This document shows positions 2,763-8,413 of a stretch of DNA of 64,000 bases, piece after piece. A program made the translations under genes and the position numbers. Origin of the DNA: Enterobacter sp. RHBSTW-00994 (GTDB lineage Bacteria > Pseudomonadota > Gammaproteobacteria > Enterobacterales > Enterobacteriaceae); NCBI RefSeq assembly GCF_013782625.1, contig NZ_CP056199.1, positions 576,588 to 640,587 of the forward strand, written 5' to 3'. The first letter of the stretch is position 1. Every line of letters begins with the position of its first letter. The notes under the pieces were generated by a model. The model was not told the DNA's origin. It saw only the letters and a program-made list of their open reading frames with translations, and ran no database searches.

Positions 2763-3773
2763 ATGGAATTTGCAGAACTTTCAAAATCAGCTTGTCTTTA
2801 TTGGCCTAAAGAACTGGCGGAAGAGGCACTTTCAGTAAGCTTGATTAGCCCTTTAATTGAAACACAAGAAGAGTTTTTATCAATTTTAAAGATCTCTAGC
2901 CATACGCCGACATCGTGGGTTGATGCGATTAAGCTTTGTGATGCTATTTCTCCAAATTTATTCTTAAAGCATTTAATGGTACTTTCAGATGTAGGAGGGG
3001 AGAGGTTACAGCGTTACTCAAAAGATATTAAAAGAATATTCCCAGATGGGAAAATGGTCTTTGAAACGAATGGTAAAGAGCATTCATACGAATTTAAAAG
3101 TAAAAGATCCTGGAATACAAAGAATCTGAACGTTGAAAAAAGTCTTTTGCTTAAAAATATTGATGATTTCAGTGATGAGATGATGGACGTTTGTATGCTG
3201 ATTCTTTGGGCTGCAAATACGATAAATAATACTGCCTTGCCTAAAGAAATGATTGATAATTGTATTATTGGGAACATGATTGGTAATAAAGAGGAGATTA
3301 CCAAGTTTGTCAGAGAGCGGTATATTATGGTGAGTCGTCAAACTGGTGGCTCAACTGCGAATGATTTGGGACATATTTGCGAAAAGTATATTAAAGAGAA
3401 ATTAGAAGAAAAGGTTCATAGCTATATCTCTTTAGATGGTCATACCATCGAAGGTATTACACATAATGATAAAGATCTGACAACATTCGATCTGGTTGCA
3501 AAAAATACAAAAACAAAAAAAAGCATTGGTATTGAAGTTAGTTTTCAGGTGACAACAAATTCGACAATTGAGCGTAAGGCTGGATTAGCAAAAAGCAGGA
3601 AAGATTTGTTAAATTCAGCAGGCCATAAAGTTGCATATGTTATTGATGGTTCAGGGAATTTTCAAAGGGCTAATGCGATTAGAAGCATTATTTCGCATAG
3701 TGACATGACTGTGAATTTCTCAGATAATGGGATCAATGAATTAGCTGGATTTATATGTGAGACACTTAAATGA
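2763..3773 (+). CDS. Type II restriction endonuclease, PD-(D/E)XK-like
   Basis: A 336-residue protein encoded directly before, and overlapping by 4 bases (ATGA), a C5-cytosine DNA methyltransferase, the usual layout of a type II restriction-modification pair. The likely catalytic core is D243 in TTFDLVAKN, followed after a beta turn by E258 in IGIEVSFQ, which fits a PD-(D/E)XK nuclease variant with Gln/Ser in place of the Lys. A preceding helix GHICEKYIKEKL could supply another acidic residue. The start ATG follows AAGGATTTATC, a good ribosome binding site. The DNA is much more AT-rich than the chromosome around it, suggesting recent transfer. The recognition sequence cannot be read from the protein. 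It should cut unmodified foreign DNA. Confidence 0.75.
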   Translation: MEFAELSKSACLYWPKELAEEALSVSLISPLIETQEEFLSILKISSHTPTSWVDAIKLCDAISPNLFLKHLMVLSDVGGERLQRYSKDIKRIFPDGKMVFETNGKEHSYEFKSKRSWNTKNLNVEKSLLLKNIDDFSDEMMDVCMLILWAANTINNTALPKEMIDNCIIGNMIGNKEEITKFVRERYIMVSRQTGGSTANDLGHICEKYIKEKLEEKVHSYISLDGHTIEGITHNDKDLTTFDLVAKNTKTKKSIGIEVSFQVTTNSTIERKAGLAKSRKDLLNSAGHKVAYVIDGSGNFQRANAIRSIISHSDMTVNFSDNGINELAGFICETLK

Positions 3774-5020
3774 TTAAATTTGTTGACCTTTTCTCTGGAA
3801 CTGGGGGGATACGTCTGGGTTTTGAACAGGCTATGAAAGAGAAAGGGTTTGAAACTCACTGTATAAAGAGTGCTGAGATTGATAAAAATGCTTGTGAGAC
3901 ATACAAGTTAAATTTTGAAGAAGATTCTTATCATGACATTCATGATATTGATATAAAAGAAGATTTTGATGTTCTCCTGGCTGGTTTTCCATGCCAGGCT
4001 TTTTCGTATGCAGGTAAACAATTAGGGTTTGCAGATACTCGGGGCACACTCTTTTTTGAGGTCGAAAGAATAATAAAAAAGAATCGCCCAAAATTATGTT
4101 TACTTGAAAATGTTCGTGGGCTGACAAGTCATGATAAAGGCAGGACGTTTGCGACCATCATAGGCAAATTACATCAGTTGGGCTACAGTGTTGAGTATAG
4201 ATTGCTCAACTCAAGTAATTTCGGCATCCCTCAAAATCGGGTGCGTATTTACATTGTTGCATCCCTGAATGAAGAATTAAATGTGACGATCCCGAACGAT
4301 CTGGGTGCTAAAGACTCTCATAACTATGCACCTGGGATTTTATCGCACCATACTTATAAAGCATCTAAAGTTGAAGATATTTTAGAAGAAGATCCCGATC
4401 CCAAATACGATTGTAGTGATTGGTTCAGAGGACGCCTTGAAAGTATATTCGAGGGGGACCTCAATAAGGTTCATGGCATTCGACTTATTGATACCAGAAA
4501 CGGGAATTCGATTCACTCCTGGGATTTGGGTCTAAAGGGGGATTGTACTGAAAACGAAGTTATGTTTATGAATTTGCTGATTGCAAACAGAAGAAAACAT
4601 ATTTTTGGTACTCACCAGGATGGTAAGGCACTTTCCATTGAGCAGATCAAGACGTTTTATGAATTTAATGATCTTGATGAGGTGATAGGAGCTCTGTTGT
4701 CCAAAGGATACTTGAAAAATATCGACGGAAAATATAATCCAGTATGCGGAAATATGTCTTTTGAAGTTTTCAAGTTTCTTGATCCGAAAAAAATATCCAT
4801 CACTTTAACGGCTTCTGATACAAACCGACTTGGTGTTTTTTATAATAACCGGTTGAGAAAGTTAACACCAAGAGAGGCCGCTCGATTACAAGGCTATCCA
4901 GATGATTATATATTGCACCCAAAAGATGTATTGGCTTACAAACAACTGGGTAACGCCGTAAGTGTGCCTGTGATTCGCAATATATTTCTGGACTTACTGA
5001 ACCATAATAATATTTTTTAA
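3770..5020 (+). CDS. DNA (cytosine-5-)-methyltransferase, cognate of the restriction enzyme
   Basis: A 416-residue C5-cytosine methyltransferase with all key motifs: motif I FVDLFSGTGG (S-adenosylmethionine binding), motif IV GFPCQAFS with the catalytic Cys at residue 75, motif VI LENVRGL, motif VIII QNRVRIYIV, motif IX RKLTPREAARLQGYP and motif X LGNAVSVPV. Between VIII and IX lies a target-recognition region of about 180 residues with a helical insert (around residues 255-330). It is cotranslated with the endonuclease through an ATGA overlap, and its role is to protect host DNA at the shared site. The low GC content matches the endonuclease, not the neighbours. A strong hairpin terminator follows directly. 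Confidence 0.93.
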   Translation: MIKFVDLFSGTGGIRLGFEQAMKEKGFETHCIKSAEIDKNACETYKLNFEEDSYHDIHDIDIKEDFDVLLAGFPCQAFSYAGKQLGFADTRGTLFFEVERIIKKNRPKLCLLENVRGLTSHDKGRTFATIIGKLHQLGYSVEYRLLNSSNFGIPQNRVRIYIVASLNEELNVTIPNDLGAKDSHNYAPGILSHHTYKASKVEDILEEDPDPKYDCSDWFRGRLESIFEGDLNKVHGIRLIDTRNGNSIHSWDLGLKGDCTENEVMFMNLLIANRRKHIFGTHQDGKALSIEQIKTFYEFNDLDEVIGALLSKGYLKNIDGKYNPVCGNMSFEVFKFLDPKKISITLTASDTNRLGVFYNNRLRKLTPREAARLQGYPDDYILHPKDVLAYKQLGNAVSVPVIRNIFLDLLNHNNIF

Positions 5021-5023
5021 AGT

Positions 5024-5059
5024 AAAAATAAGGCTGATGAAATCAGCCTTATTTTTTTT
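5024..5059 (+). terminator. Rho-independent terminator of the restriction-modification operon
   Basis: A perfect 15-base-pair inverted repeat (arms 5024-5038 and 5042-5056, core AAGGCTGAT / ATCAGCCTT) with a GAA loop runs into a T8 tract. It sits 3 bases after the methyltransferase stop codon. Confidence 0.92.
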
Positions 5060-5129
5060 GATCATGTATTGTTTAAAGTTTAAAATAACCGGGTTATATC
5101 TTTTCATAAGAAAATAAATACCTATATTT

Positions 5130-5996
5130 TCATAAAAATACTTCTCGCCGATGCCATTCTAAAAAGGTCTCATTGGGGTAATTCCCCTTCATCATCGGCA
5201 GTGAAATTTGCTTCCCGGCAAAGTCCCGGAACAGCCTCGCGACAATCCCACCTCCATTTACTGCCTCAGAAATAAGCACCCGCATATTCTCATCCAGCCC
5301 AATCGAGCCTCTATCGAACGCCTTATGATGAATTGCGCACAGTGCCAGCCCGTTCGGAATTTCACATGGCCCACCATACTGTTTCCATTTGATATGGGCC
5401 GCTTCCAGGGCTACTGGGGAATGATCGTGCCGCATGTTGAATCCGCAGATCGCACATTCATAGTTATACGCACGCAGTACCTGCTGGCGGAAAAGCGGAT
5501 CGCGCACCTTGCGGATCTGCTGGATATCAAAACCCATCTCATCCGCGATCTCTTCTTGGATGCTTTCAGGGAAGTGCGTTTCAAGGATCTGTTGCGCGAG
5601 TGAGCCAATCAGTTTTGAGCTTTTAATCAGCAATGCATAGTTTTCTTCATCAAACCCACCTGCAACGCGCTGTTTAACAAGTTCTCCCGCAGGCGGCTGT
5701 CGGTTTCCTGATGTCGAACAGAACTCGTCATTTTCCAGTTCCCAGAACCCATCGCCTTTGAGGCGCCAGAACGGCATGTCAGGGCGATACTGGGCACGTT
5801 GCGGGCCAAACCGTTCCAGCAGGCTATGCAGCTGATCGCGCACTTCCGTACTATAGTCGAACAGGCGAGCATGCCCCTGCTGGTAATTTGCCAACACATA
5901 CAGAAGCAAAAGAGGCTTATGTGGCGCACGCTGTTCACCTTTGCGCCAGATGGTGATATCGGCAATTGCCTGTTCGAGAATGTTGCTGGAAGCCAT
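5130..5996 (-). CDS. SBD-HNH restriction endonuclease, phosphorothioated-DNA-binding type
   Basis: About 288 residues from the ATG at 5996. The N-terminal half has WRKGEQRAPHKPLLLLYVL and YRPDMPFWRLKGDGFWEL, which I recognise as the sulfur-binding domain (SBD) of modification-dependent nucleases such as ScoMcrA. The C-terminal half is an HNH nuclease: Cys pair in CAICGF, then LEAAHIKW, then NGLALCAIHHKAFDRG. Known members cut DNA carrying Dnd-type phosphorothioate, so this would be a type IV-like barrier. No dnd modification genes are in the window, as expected for a type IV enzyme. A TTG start at 6050 preceded by a G-rich ribosome-site-like stretch would add 18 residues; I prefer the ATG because the family homology begins just after it. 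Confidence 0.75.
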   Translation of the reverse strand: MASSNILEQAIADITIWRKGEQRAPHKPLLLLYVLANYQQGHARLFDYSTEVRDQLHSLLERFGPQRAQYRPDMPFWRLKGDGFWELENDEFCSTSGNRQPPAGELVKQRVAGGFDEENYALLIKSSKLIGSLAQQILETHFPESIQEEIADEMGFDIQQIRKVRDPLFRQQVLRAYNYECAICGFNMRHDHSPVALEAAHIKWKQYGGPCEIPNGLALCAIHHKAFDRGSIGLDENMRVLISEAVNGGGIVARLFRDFAGKQISLPMMKGNYPNETFLEWHRREVFL

Positions 5997-6050
5997 CGCT
6001 TTACGGAAGAAGATAAATAATTGCGATGATGCTCGCAAAACGTAGGCCAA

Positions 6051-6787: not shown

Positions 6788-7792
6788 TTACATCACAGGT
6801 ATCCCCAACCCCGCCTTAACCTCCCGCAGCGTCCCCTGCGTCACCCCCTGTGCCCGTTCCGTTCCGCGTTTCAGCATCGCCATCAGCTCCCCCTTATCCT
6901 GCATATACATCGCTCTTCGTTCCCGCATCGGCGCAATAAGTTCCTGTAAGCACGCTTCCAGCACGTTTTTGCATGCCCGGTCCCCAAGCCCGCCAGCCTG
7001 ATAGTGCGCCTTCATCGCCGCCACTTTGGTTTTGTCCGGATGAAACGCATCCAGGTAGGTAAACACGACGTTGCCCGTTATCTGCCCTGGGTCGCTCACT
7101 TTCAGATGAGTTGGGTCCGTGTACATGGCGCTGACGGCCTGGTGAATGGCCTCTTCACTGGCAGAAAGGTGCAGCGTGTTGCCGAGTGATTTCGACATTT
7201 TTGCGCTGCCATCAATGCCGGGCAGGCGGCTGGTGTCGCTCAGCATCGCTTTGCAGTGGCGCAGTACGGGGGCGGGCAGCAGGCTATTCATCTTATGAAC
7301 GATCTCGTTGGTCTGCTCAATCATCGGCAACTGGTCGTCACCAACGGGTACGCACTCGGCCCTGAATGCGGTGATGTCCGCCGCCTGGCTGATGGGGTAG
7401 GCCATAAACCCGACCGGCAGCGAGCGGGCAAACCCTTTCTGTGCAATCTCATTTTTCACCGTCGGGTTACGCTCCACGCGGGCGACGGTGACGATGTTCA
7501 TGTACAGCATTGTCAGTTCGGCAAGGGCGGGCAGGGCAGATTGCAGGCAGATCGTGGTCAGGTTCGGGTCGATACCGGCGGCGAGATAGTCGGCCAGCAC
7601 TTCGGGGATATTATCGCGGATCTTCTGCGGATTGCTGCCGTTGTCGGTCAGTCCCTGAAGATCGGCGATTAAGACAAACTGTTGGTGGCTGTGTTGCAGG
7701 GCAACGCGCTGGCGCAGCGAGCCGACATAGTGACCCAGATGCAGCGGGCCGGTTGGACGGTCACCAGTGAGAATGGTGCTTTGGGTATTCAT
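6788..7792 (-). CDS. trpS2: Tryptophanyl-tRNA synthetase, second (auxiliary) type
   Basis: A 334-residue class Ic synthetase that charges tRNA-Trp. The HIGH signature appears as [10 protein letters not shown] (residues 16-25) and the KMSKS loop as [10 protein letters not shown] (near residue 200). The sequence is clearly different from the housekeeping E. coli TrpS (which begins MTKPIVFSGAQPSG and has TIGN in place of HLGH), so this is the divergent second TrpRS class, some members of which tolerate TrpRS inhibitors such as indolmycin (established for the class, inferred here). An AAGGAG ribosome site precedes the ATG at 7792. Upstream lies a leader peptide with two Trp codons and mutually exclusive hairpins, suggesting control by tryptophan starvation. 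fosA is divergent. Confidence 0.93.
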
Positions 7793-7837
7793 AAAAACTC
7801 CTTAAGGGTGAGTGCCGAAAGGGGTTCTGGAAATGCA

Positions 7838-7859
7838 ATAGCCGCCTTTCGGCGGCTAT
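7838..7859 (-). terminator. Attenuator hairpin (3:4) in the trpS2 leader
   Basis: A perfect 9-base-pair inverted repeat (ATAGCCGCC / GGCGGCTAT with a 4-base loop), followed on the minus strand by the U-containing tail UUGCAUUU. Its upstream arm (7851-7859) can alternatively pair with the GGCGGC of leader segment 2 (7885-7892), which would prevent termination. Confidence 0.65.
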
Positions 7860-7891
7860 CTGAATGTGGGAAAAACTACTCCGTGCCGCCT

Positions 7892-7945
7892 TTAAGAAGG
7901 CAGCCACCAACGGTTTACGGTGAGTACGGCGTGGTTTATGTTCAT
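7892..7945 (-). CDS. Trp-rich leader peptide of trpS2 (attenuator)
   Basis: A 17-codon minus-strand reading frame, [17 protein letters not shown] and stop, 99 bases upstream of the trpS2 start. It has tandem UGG codons at positions 13-14. The last codons and stop overlap an RNA hairpin (1:2, arms 7897-7904 and 7885-7892, GCUGCCUU with AAGGCGGC). Segment 2 can also pair with segment 3 (7851-7856), which otherwise makes the 3:4 terminator hairpin. This is the layout of the trp operon leader: stalling at Trp codons would free segment 2 and permit read-through. The ribosome site is weak (GGTAATGGG before ATG). It is unrelated in sequence to E. coli TrpL except for the Trp pair. Confidence 0.65.
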
Positions 7946-7990
7946 CCCATTACCGTATCATGTCTGGCGCGAAAAACAAAAGGGCATCCC

Positions 7991-8413
7991 ATGCTGCAAT
8001 CTCTCAACCATCTGACGCTTGCCGTCAGCGATCTGCAAAAAAGCGTCACTTTCTGGCGCGATCTCCTGGGGCTTACGCTTCATGCGCAGTGGTATACCGG
8101 TGCATATCTCAGTTGTGGCGATCTCTGGCTTTGCCTTTCATATGATGACGCGCGACGCGTGGTTCCCCCGCAGGAGAGCGACTACACCCATTACGCATTT
8201 AGCGTTGCAGAGGACGATTTTGGCCCGTTGTCGCACAAGCTGGAACAGGCGGGTGTTAGCGTCTGGAAGCAGAACAAAAGCGAAGGGGCATCGTTTTACT
8301 TTCTGGATCCGGACGGGCACAAGCTGGAACTGCATGTCGGCAATCTCGCGGCACGGCTGGCAGCGTGTCGCGAGATGCCCTATGCAGGAATGCAGTTTTA
8401 TCCGCAGGACTAA
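7991..8413 (+). CDS. fosA: Fosfomycin resistance glutathione transferase FosA
   Basis: A 140-residue vicinal-oxygen-chelate metalloenzyme that adds glutathione to fosfomycin, opening the epoxide. The sequence [32 protein letters not shown] and [13 protein letters not shown] matches FosA along its whole length. Metal ligands His7, His67 and Glu113 are present, as are the potassium-site and fosfomycin-binding region KSEGASFYF and Arg122. AGGG precedes the ATG at 7991. A possible promoter is TTTACG (7914) and TATGTT with 17-base spacing, lying inside the divergent trpS2 leader. Its position among core genes without mobile elements indicates an intrinsic chromosomal copy. The stop overlaps the stop of the convergent GNAT gene. 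Confidence 0.95.

Follow-up and report, generated by a model that had tools for sequence, protein, structure and literature searches.

The window analyzed in this study, a stretch of 64,000 nucleotides, is taken from Enterobacter sp. RHBSTW-00994 (contig NZ_CP056199.1, positions 576,588–640,587). On its minus strand, trpS2 (6788..7792) encodes an auxiliary tryptophanyl-tRNA synthetase (TrpRS) of 334 residues that scores 212 bits against TIGR00233 (cut-off 176.75), and a second TrpRS, 26% identical to TrpS2, is encoded elsewhere in the 4.89-Mb single-contig genome. The gene is preceded on the same strand by a leader open reading frame of 17 codons (7892..7945), read directly from the sequence, with its ATG at 7945–7943 and its UAA stop codon at 7894–7892, 99 nt from trpS2. 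Divergent from the leader, at 7991–8413 on the plus strand, is a FosA-family fosfomycin resistance gene (280.7 bits; cut-off 275); the two start codons are 45 nt apart, and 12 of 80 trpS2 loci (the best 80 of 581) have a FosA relative upstream. The region 3770–6050, adjoining trpS2, contains a DNA cytosine methyltransferase gene on the plus strand and, on the opposite strand, a gene for a phosphorothioated-DNA restriction endonuclease family protein (430 bits).

The leader contains two tandem UGG codons (7904..7909, minus strand; UGG 7909–7907 and UGG 7906–7904), which are conserved in relatives and are followed directly by the first of four RNA segments, all on the minus strand, with mutually exclusive pairings. 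Segment 1, GCTGCCTT (7897..7904), pairs with segment 2, AAGGCGGC (7885..7892), which can instead pair through GGCGGC (7890–7885) with the complementary GCCGCC (7856–7851) of segment 3, ATAGCCGCC (7851..7859). Segment 3 is also the left arm of the 3:4 hairpin, of which segment 4, GGCGGCTAT (7838..7846), is the right arm. The leader with its tandem Trp codons and the 1:2, 2:3, and 3:4 complementarities had been proposed in a preliminary description of this DNA, and direct reading of the minus strand bears them out, with two amendments: GGCGGC had been placed at 7886–7891, and the element, which had been assigned to 7831..7945, is indeed there but extends further, to the start of trpS2 at 7790. 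An open reading frame with tandem codons for the amino acid concerned, as expected of the leader of an amino acid attenuator, is present in the window and upstream of 75 of the best 80 of 581 relatives. No Rfam family matched at gathering level anywhere in the window, and no T-box was matched in 7600–8200 at E values up to 10.

Conservation of the pairings was assessed in an alignment of 31 Enterobacterales leaders. In the 1:2 plus 3:4 structure, 93.3% of cells are paired as compared with 86.9% in shuffled alignments, and 28 cells show two-sided changes as compared with 10.5; none of 500 shuffles was as high. In the same alignment, neither the number of pairs with a two-sided change (four; 147 of 500 shuffles had as many) nor the number of additional pair types (11; 229 of 500) is unusual. 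All two-sided changes fall in helix 3:4, and none occurs in 1:2, which is a conserved helix; the compensatory changes in the stems that had been suggested as a check are found for the 3:4 part only. The leader and its pairings are real and beyond chance.

Among the best 80 of 581 confirmed relatives found in a scan of a genome collection, a selection that leans to close relatives, 75 have a short open reading frame with a Trp-Trp pair within 420 nt upstream of the trpS2 relative. The hosts comprise Enterobacterales, Vibrionaceae, an Aeromonadaceae metagenome-assembled genome, Cocleimonas, and one Bradyrhizobium. One locus (L027) retains only one of the two Trp codons, and four of these 80 (L070, L071, L077, and L080) have no leader; L105 is likewise leaderless. 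A TGGTGG at –124 of L071 was not counted since it falls inside the upstream gene. The leader set used below consists of 76 sequences, the window and 75 loci including L027, and omits L056, whose start is uncertain, together with the four leaderless loci. The Trp pair lies 2–4 residues from the stop codon in 68 of the 76 leaders and 6, 12, or 15 residues from it in the other eight, and the peptide before the pair varies. Conservation of the Trp codons and pairings in relatives, on which the earlier proposal depended, was accordingly found.

A survey of the family located trpS2 in 21 of 149 genomes (E at most 1e-80), and UGGUGG is present upstream of all 21 copies. A covariance model of the leader (R1) matched only one of 370 genomes of a class-wide sample; because that sample lies almost wholly outside Enterobacterales, the model was run on the family, where it gave 23 matches in 22 of the 149 genomes. 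Twenty of these precede trpS2, so that 20 of the 21 trpS2 leaders are recovered; the leader missed by the model, in G472, was seen by eye. The other three matches (G427, G492, and the second in G504), inspected by eye, resemble ordinary GC hairpins.

The gene also occurs on plasmids. Three plasmid records (L150, E. coli from river water; L151, Salmonella; and L152, E. coli) carry trpS2 with the Trp-Trp leader and the hairpins. In E. coli, three of 5426 genomes have a match, all plasmid-borne, one of which consists of only 78 nt at an IS1. In a plasmid collection, 89 records, some of them chromosome-sized and 23 from Staphylococcus, contain a trpS2 relative (E 1e-80). The Salmonella small RNA isrQ is placed by PMC2515195 in the STM4508–STM4509 gap, beside trpS2 and on the opposite strand.

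The released leader RNA or peptide might act in trans, with control in cis being secondary, and a precedent is reported for peTrpL of Sinorhizobium (PMC7298713). The peptide outside the Trp pair varies freely, however, and the leader remains with trpS2 on the three plasmids read, and we regard such an action as highly improbable.

The presence of the leader is linked with the auxiliary status of the enzyme in the genomes tested, as judged from gene content. TrpRS genes were counted in 26 genomes, which were chosen rather than drawn at random and for 14 of which completeness is unstated; 20 of them (11 of 14 and 9 of 12 in two groups) have at least two TrpRS over the TIGR00233 cut-off. All 20 have a Trp-Trp leader before a trpS2-type copy, whereas none of the six genomes whose only TrpRS over the cut-off is of the trpS2 type (G007, G011, G012, G096, G149, and G162) has one. 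In Pseudoalteromonas luteoviolacea both situations are found: the leaderless copy (L071) lies beside genes for a methyltransferase, a glyoxalase-fold protein, an aminotransferase, and a LuxR-type regulator, a neighborhood in agreement with the indolmycin cluster described in PMC5069768 (unk1 and its neighbors), and the second copy (L099) has a Trp-Trp leader and a 10-bp helix over its Shine-Dalgarno (SD) sequence. In Candidatus Enterovibrio escacola (L070, a 2.6-Mb genome), the sole TrpRS over the cut-off is on a record titled plasmid pMJ1. We found no supporting point for a reading of the Trp codons and hairpins as a functionless remnant in decay or a product of chance; it is already contradicted by the conservation in 75 of the best 80 of 581 relatives, by the two-sided changes in 3:4, and by the link with auxiliary status, and we attach practically no weight to it.

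Among the best 80 of 581, the nearest relatives of TrpS2 are mostly from Enterobacter, with 95% identity. The nearest solved structures, PDB 2a4m and 1yi8 (369 bits), are annotated as TrpRS II or TrpRS and are presumably TrpRS II of Deinococcus radiodurans. All 81 trpS2-type proteins have Gln (Q46 in the window) where canonical TrpS has His (6 of 6), and we take this His, assigned by motif, to be H43 of Bacillus stearothermophilus TrpRS. Replacement of H43 by Asn gave indolmycin resistance in the B. stearothermophilus enzyme (PMC4899734). The TrpRS of the P. luteoviolacea indolmycin cluster (L071) is 66% identical to TrpS2. From these comparisons, TrpS2 is probably insensitive to indolmycin-type inhibitors, and the Gln at the His position and the 66%-identical cluster relative lend indirect support to the earlier suggestion that the element lets cells respond to TrpRS inhibitors. 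The Salmonella TrpS2 shares 28% identity with TrpS, which transposon data suggest it can replace (PMC3487940), and STM4508 (trpS2) is up 2-fold together with the trp genes in biofilm (PMC2805695). Both observations fit a spare enzyme for failed tRNA-Trp charging, apart from any role of the leader.

The preliminary description interpreted the element as a complete attenuator of the trp operon type, with a U-containing tail after 3:4. Control by classical transcription attenuation alone, in which 3:4 would be a terminator and any complementarity farther downstream incidental, is suggested by several features. The Rfam Trp_leader model (RF00513) aligns with the trpS2 leader end to end, although at 21.0 bits (E 0.1) and below the gathering cut-off of 41 bits; a run of at least four U within 12 nt of the stem is found in 8 of 23 representative leaders (including L038, L026, L040, and L058); and the attenuators of Streptomyces belong to the same type (PMC1262725). 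In the window, a GC hairpin is present, but a proper U-run is not. Segment 4 is followed by UGCAUUUCC, which makes a weak tail, the stretch after the fully extended 3:4 stem, GCAUUUCCAGAA, has three U in 9 nt, and a terminator scan of 7600–8400 found none. The Vibrionaceae leaders and L042, L043, L044, L046, L048, and L049 also lack a proper U-run. Across the 23 leaders, the number of U in the 9 nt after the stem ranges from 0 to 8, the leader of Rahnella (L038), with eight of nine, having both the hairpin and the U-run of an intrinsic terminator. Because good U-runs occur in some relatives, termination may matter there, and in Rahnella (L038), Klebsiella (L026), and L040, which have a U-run after 3:4, transcription is probably terminated by the switch as well. 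For the window, termination by 3:4 looks weak. With a poor U-run in the window and many relatives, and with complementarity that runs on to the SD sequence, the view of the element as a complete attenuator ending in a terminator was not upheld. Classical attenuation alone is further opposed by a downstream segment that co-varies with both of its partners, as described below, and we consider it unlikely.

This additional segment lies 3' of the 3:4 hairpin and was spotted when the leaders were read side by side. Segment 5 (7814..7828, minus strand) is complementary both to the loop region of 3:4 and to the SD region. Its part CCUUUCGGC (7822–7814) pairs with 7853–7845 of the loop region, GCCGAAAGG (7845..7853, minus strand), which consists of the end of segment 3, the loop, and the start of segment 4. 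Its part 7828–7819 pairs with segment 6 (7794..7803, minus strand), the SD sequence AAGGAG and the UUUU before trpS2, as AGAACcCCUU (7828–7819) with AAGGaGUUUU (7803–7794), with one C-A mismatch.

The two duplexes were tested in 23 representative leaders, obtained from the 76 leaders by grouping them into 24 clusters and omitting L061, whose start is uncertain. The duplex of the loop region with segment 5 is stronger than in dinucleotide shuffles (p<0.05) in 20 of the 23 leaders (window p 0.006), and that of the SD region with segment 5 in 10 of 23. For the window considered by itself, the SD helix, at –7.0 kcal/mol, does not reach significance (p 0.23), and its energy lies at percentile 0.37 of the control genes. 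When partners were swapped among leaders, none of 5000 permutations reached the cognate sum for either duplex. Within the 14 Enterobacterales leaders, the cognate value was reached by 162 of 10000 permutations for the loop region and by none of 10000 for the SD region; within the eight from Vibrionaceae and others, the corresponding numbers were 5 and 28 of 10000. With the SD hexamer masked so that only its 3' flank was considered, 10 of 10000 permutations reached the cognate value overall, and 108 and 390 did so within the groups. Because the leaders share descent, the combined values overstate the signal. In the 31-leader Enterobacterales alignment, one A-U pair of the loop:5 helix is replaced by G-C in 11 leaders; it is the only two-sided pair, a number reached by 165 of 500 shuffles, and the register of the helix is poorly fixed, since sliding it by one or two columns gave 0.262 and 0.251 as compared with 0.276. 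The SD sequences of trpS2 leaders are less open than those of 188 control genes (median percentile 0.14). The predicted cover over the SD sequence, which would characterize a translation attenuator, gives a signal across the 23 leaders, with p 0.23 in the window and no switch at equilibrium. In L111 (G441), segments 5 and 6 are separated by a foldable insertion of ~150 nt, which falls within the SD hairpin loop, with both arms intact.

A leader followed by a hairpin that lacks a U-run would also suit leader-coupled Rho-dependent termination, in which the ribosome, on stalling, would hide or uncover a Rho site and the role of the hairpins would be secondary. Conserved complementarity through six segments is unnecessary for such control, which we judge to be very unlikely.

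Folding models were used to follow the alternative pairings. For transcripts that stop short of segment 4, 2:3 pairing averaged 0.6 bp with segment 1 available and 5.7 bp with it hidden, an increase seen in all 23 leaders, and to that extent the modeling supports the earlier proposal that stalling favors 2:3 and turns the gene on. Given 2:3, segments 4 and 5 are predicted to pair by 8.6 bp as compared with 6.0 bp in shuffles, at p<0.05 in only 5 of 23 leaders (window p 0.10). With 4:5 locked, the openness of the SD sequence rose from 0.20 to 0.38 on average and by more than 0.1 in 15 of 23 leaders; in L042 it fell. Until the SD sequence is transcribed, segment 5 prevails over 3:4 in 14 of 23 leaders, even when segments 1 and 2 are both hidden. 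At equilibrium, the SD sequence was mostly paired in every state with little change between states (openness of 0.17 for the full leader, 0.26 when segment 1 was hidden, 0.20 when segment 2 was hidden as well, and 0.21 when 2:3 was imposed), and the ON state therefore needs ordered, co-transcriptional folding; ordered folding during transcription is assumed in what follows. The genome's own trp leader, used as a yardstick, also retains 3:4 at equilibrium when folded by this method.

We favor, with some confidence, the interpretation that the trpS2 leader is a ribosome-sensing Trp codon attenuator with a predicted relay to the SD sequence that would turn on translation at a shortage of Trp-tRNA. 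The leader, the 1:2, 2:3, and 3:4 complementarities, and the complementarity of segment 5 to the loop and SD regions over the leader set are what the sequences themselves supply for it. With enough Trp-tRNA (OFF), 1:2, 3:4, and 5:6 would form and the SD sequence would be covered. With a ribosome stalled at UGG UGG over segment 1 (ON), 2:3 and 4:5 would form and leave the SD sequence free, so that the spare TrpRS would be made only when charging of tRNA-Trp fails. The output is read as largely translational, with a terminator in addition in some relatives, and the earlier attenuation interpretation is partly supported. More tentatively, and at slightly less than an even chance in our estimate, a widespread six-segment Trp codon relay ending at the SD sequence may be the common control of a probably indolmycin-insensitive spare TrpRS of Gammaproteobacteria. 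In this broader proposal the older output would perhaps be translational, with terminators added in some lineages; the switch would travel on plasmids with its gene; and the backup would sense the effect of the drug and not the drug. If true, the proposal would extend amino acid attenuation in common enterics to a second synthetase, one leader could shift between transcriptional and translational output, and continued charging of tRNA-Trp while the main TrpRS is blocked would be explained. The contrast between genomes with two TrpRS, which have the leader, and those with one, which do not, makes the idea directly testable.

Attenuation with alternative pairings controls the trp operon of E. 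coli, and a trp leader (RF00513) is present in the same Enterobacter genome (G000:C1:2592241, 70.8 bits, over the cut-off). The two leaders share tandem Trp codons near the stop codon (WWRTS in the trp leader and WWLPS in the trpS2 leader) and the logic of ribosome position with 1:2, 2:3, and 3:4. In contrast, the trp leader precedes the trp biosynthetic operon, ends in a hairpin followed by eight U, and has a TrpR operator upstream, whereas the trpS2 leader precedes trpS2, lacks both the U-run and the operator, and continues to the SD sequence. TrpR control of trpS2 was considered and rejected, there being 10 mismatches to the operator consensus, as compared with one for the trp leader and eight for a random stretch.

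Experimental work on the trpRS1 attenuator of Streptomyces coelicolor has reportedly been carried out by Vecchione and Sello. Trp codon attenuators are known in Streptomyces, and one has been predicted on the auxiliary trpS2 of S. avermitilis (PMC1262725). These resemble the present element in ribosome-mediated Trp codon control of an extra TrpRS but differ in being described as classical attenuation in Actinobacteria, whereas here the hosts are Gammaproteobacteria and one Bradyrhizobium, and one segment is able to cover the SD sequence. Among the enzymes, TrpRS II of D. radiodurans is the nearest solved relative of TrpS2, and the TrpRS of the indolmycin cluster (unk1 of P. luteoviolacea; PMC5069768) is a relative but has no Trp-Trp leader. 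Searches restricted to open-licence PMC papers listed no description of an enteric trpS2 leader; a 2010 survey by Lopatovskaya and others might list one, so an earlier prediction is possible. The novelty lies in the extension to the SD sequence and in how widely the element is distributed.

With respect to its output, the proposed relay resembles the erm translation attenuators (ermC and the multi-segment ermA), in which a stalled leader ribosome frees the SD sequence through a chain of alternative pairings. In both, a covered SD sequence would be released by ribosome stalling in the leader, but the erm leaders sense macrolides on the ribosome, whereas the trpS2 leader would sense Trp-tRNA through its Trp codons.
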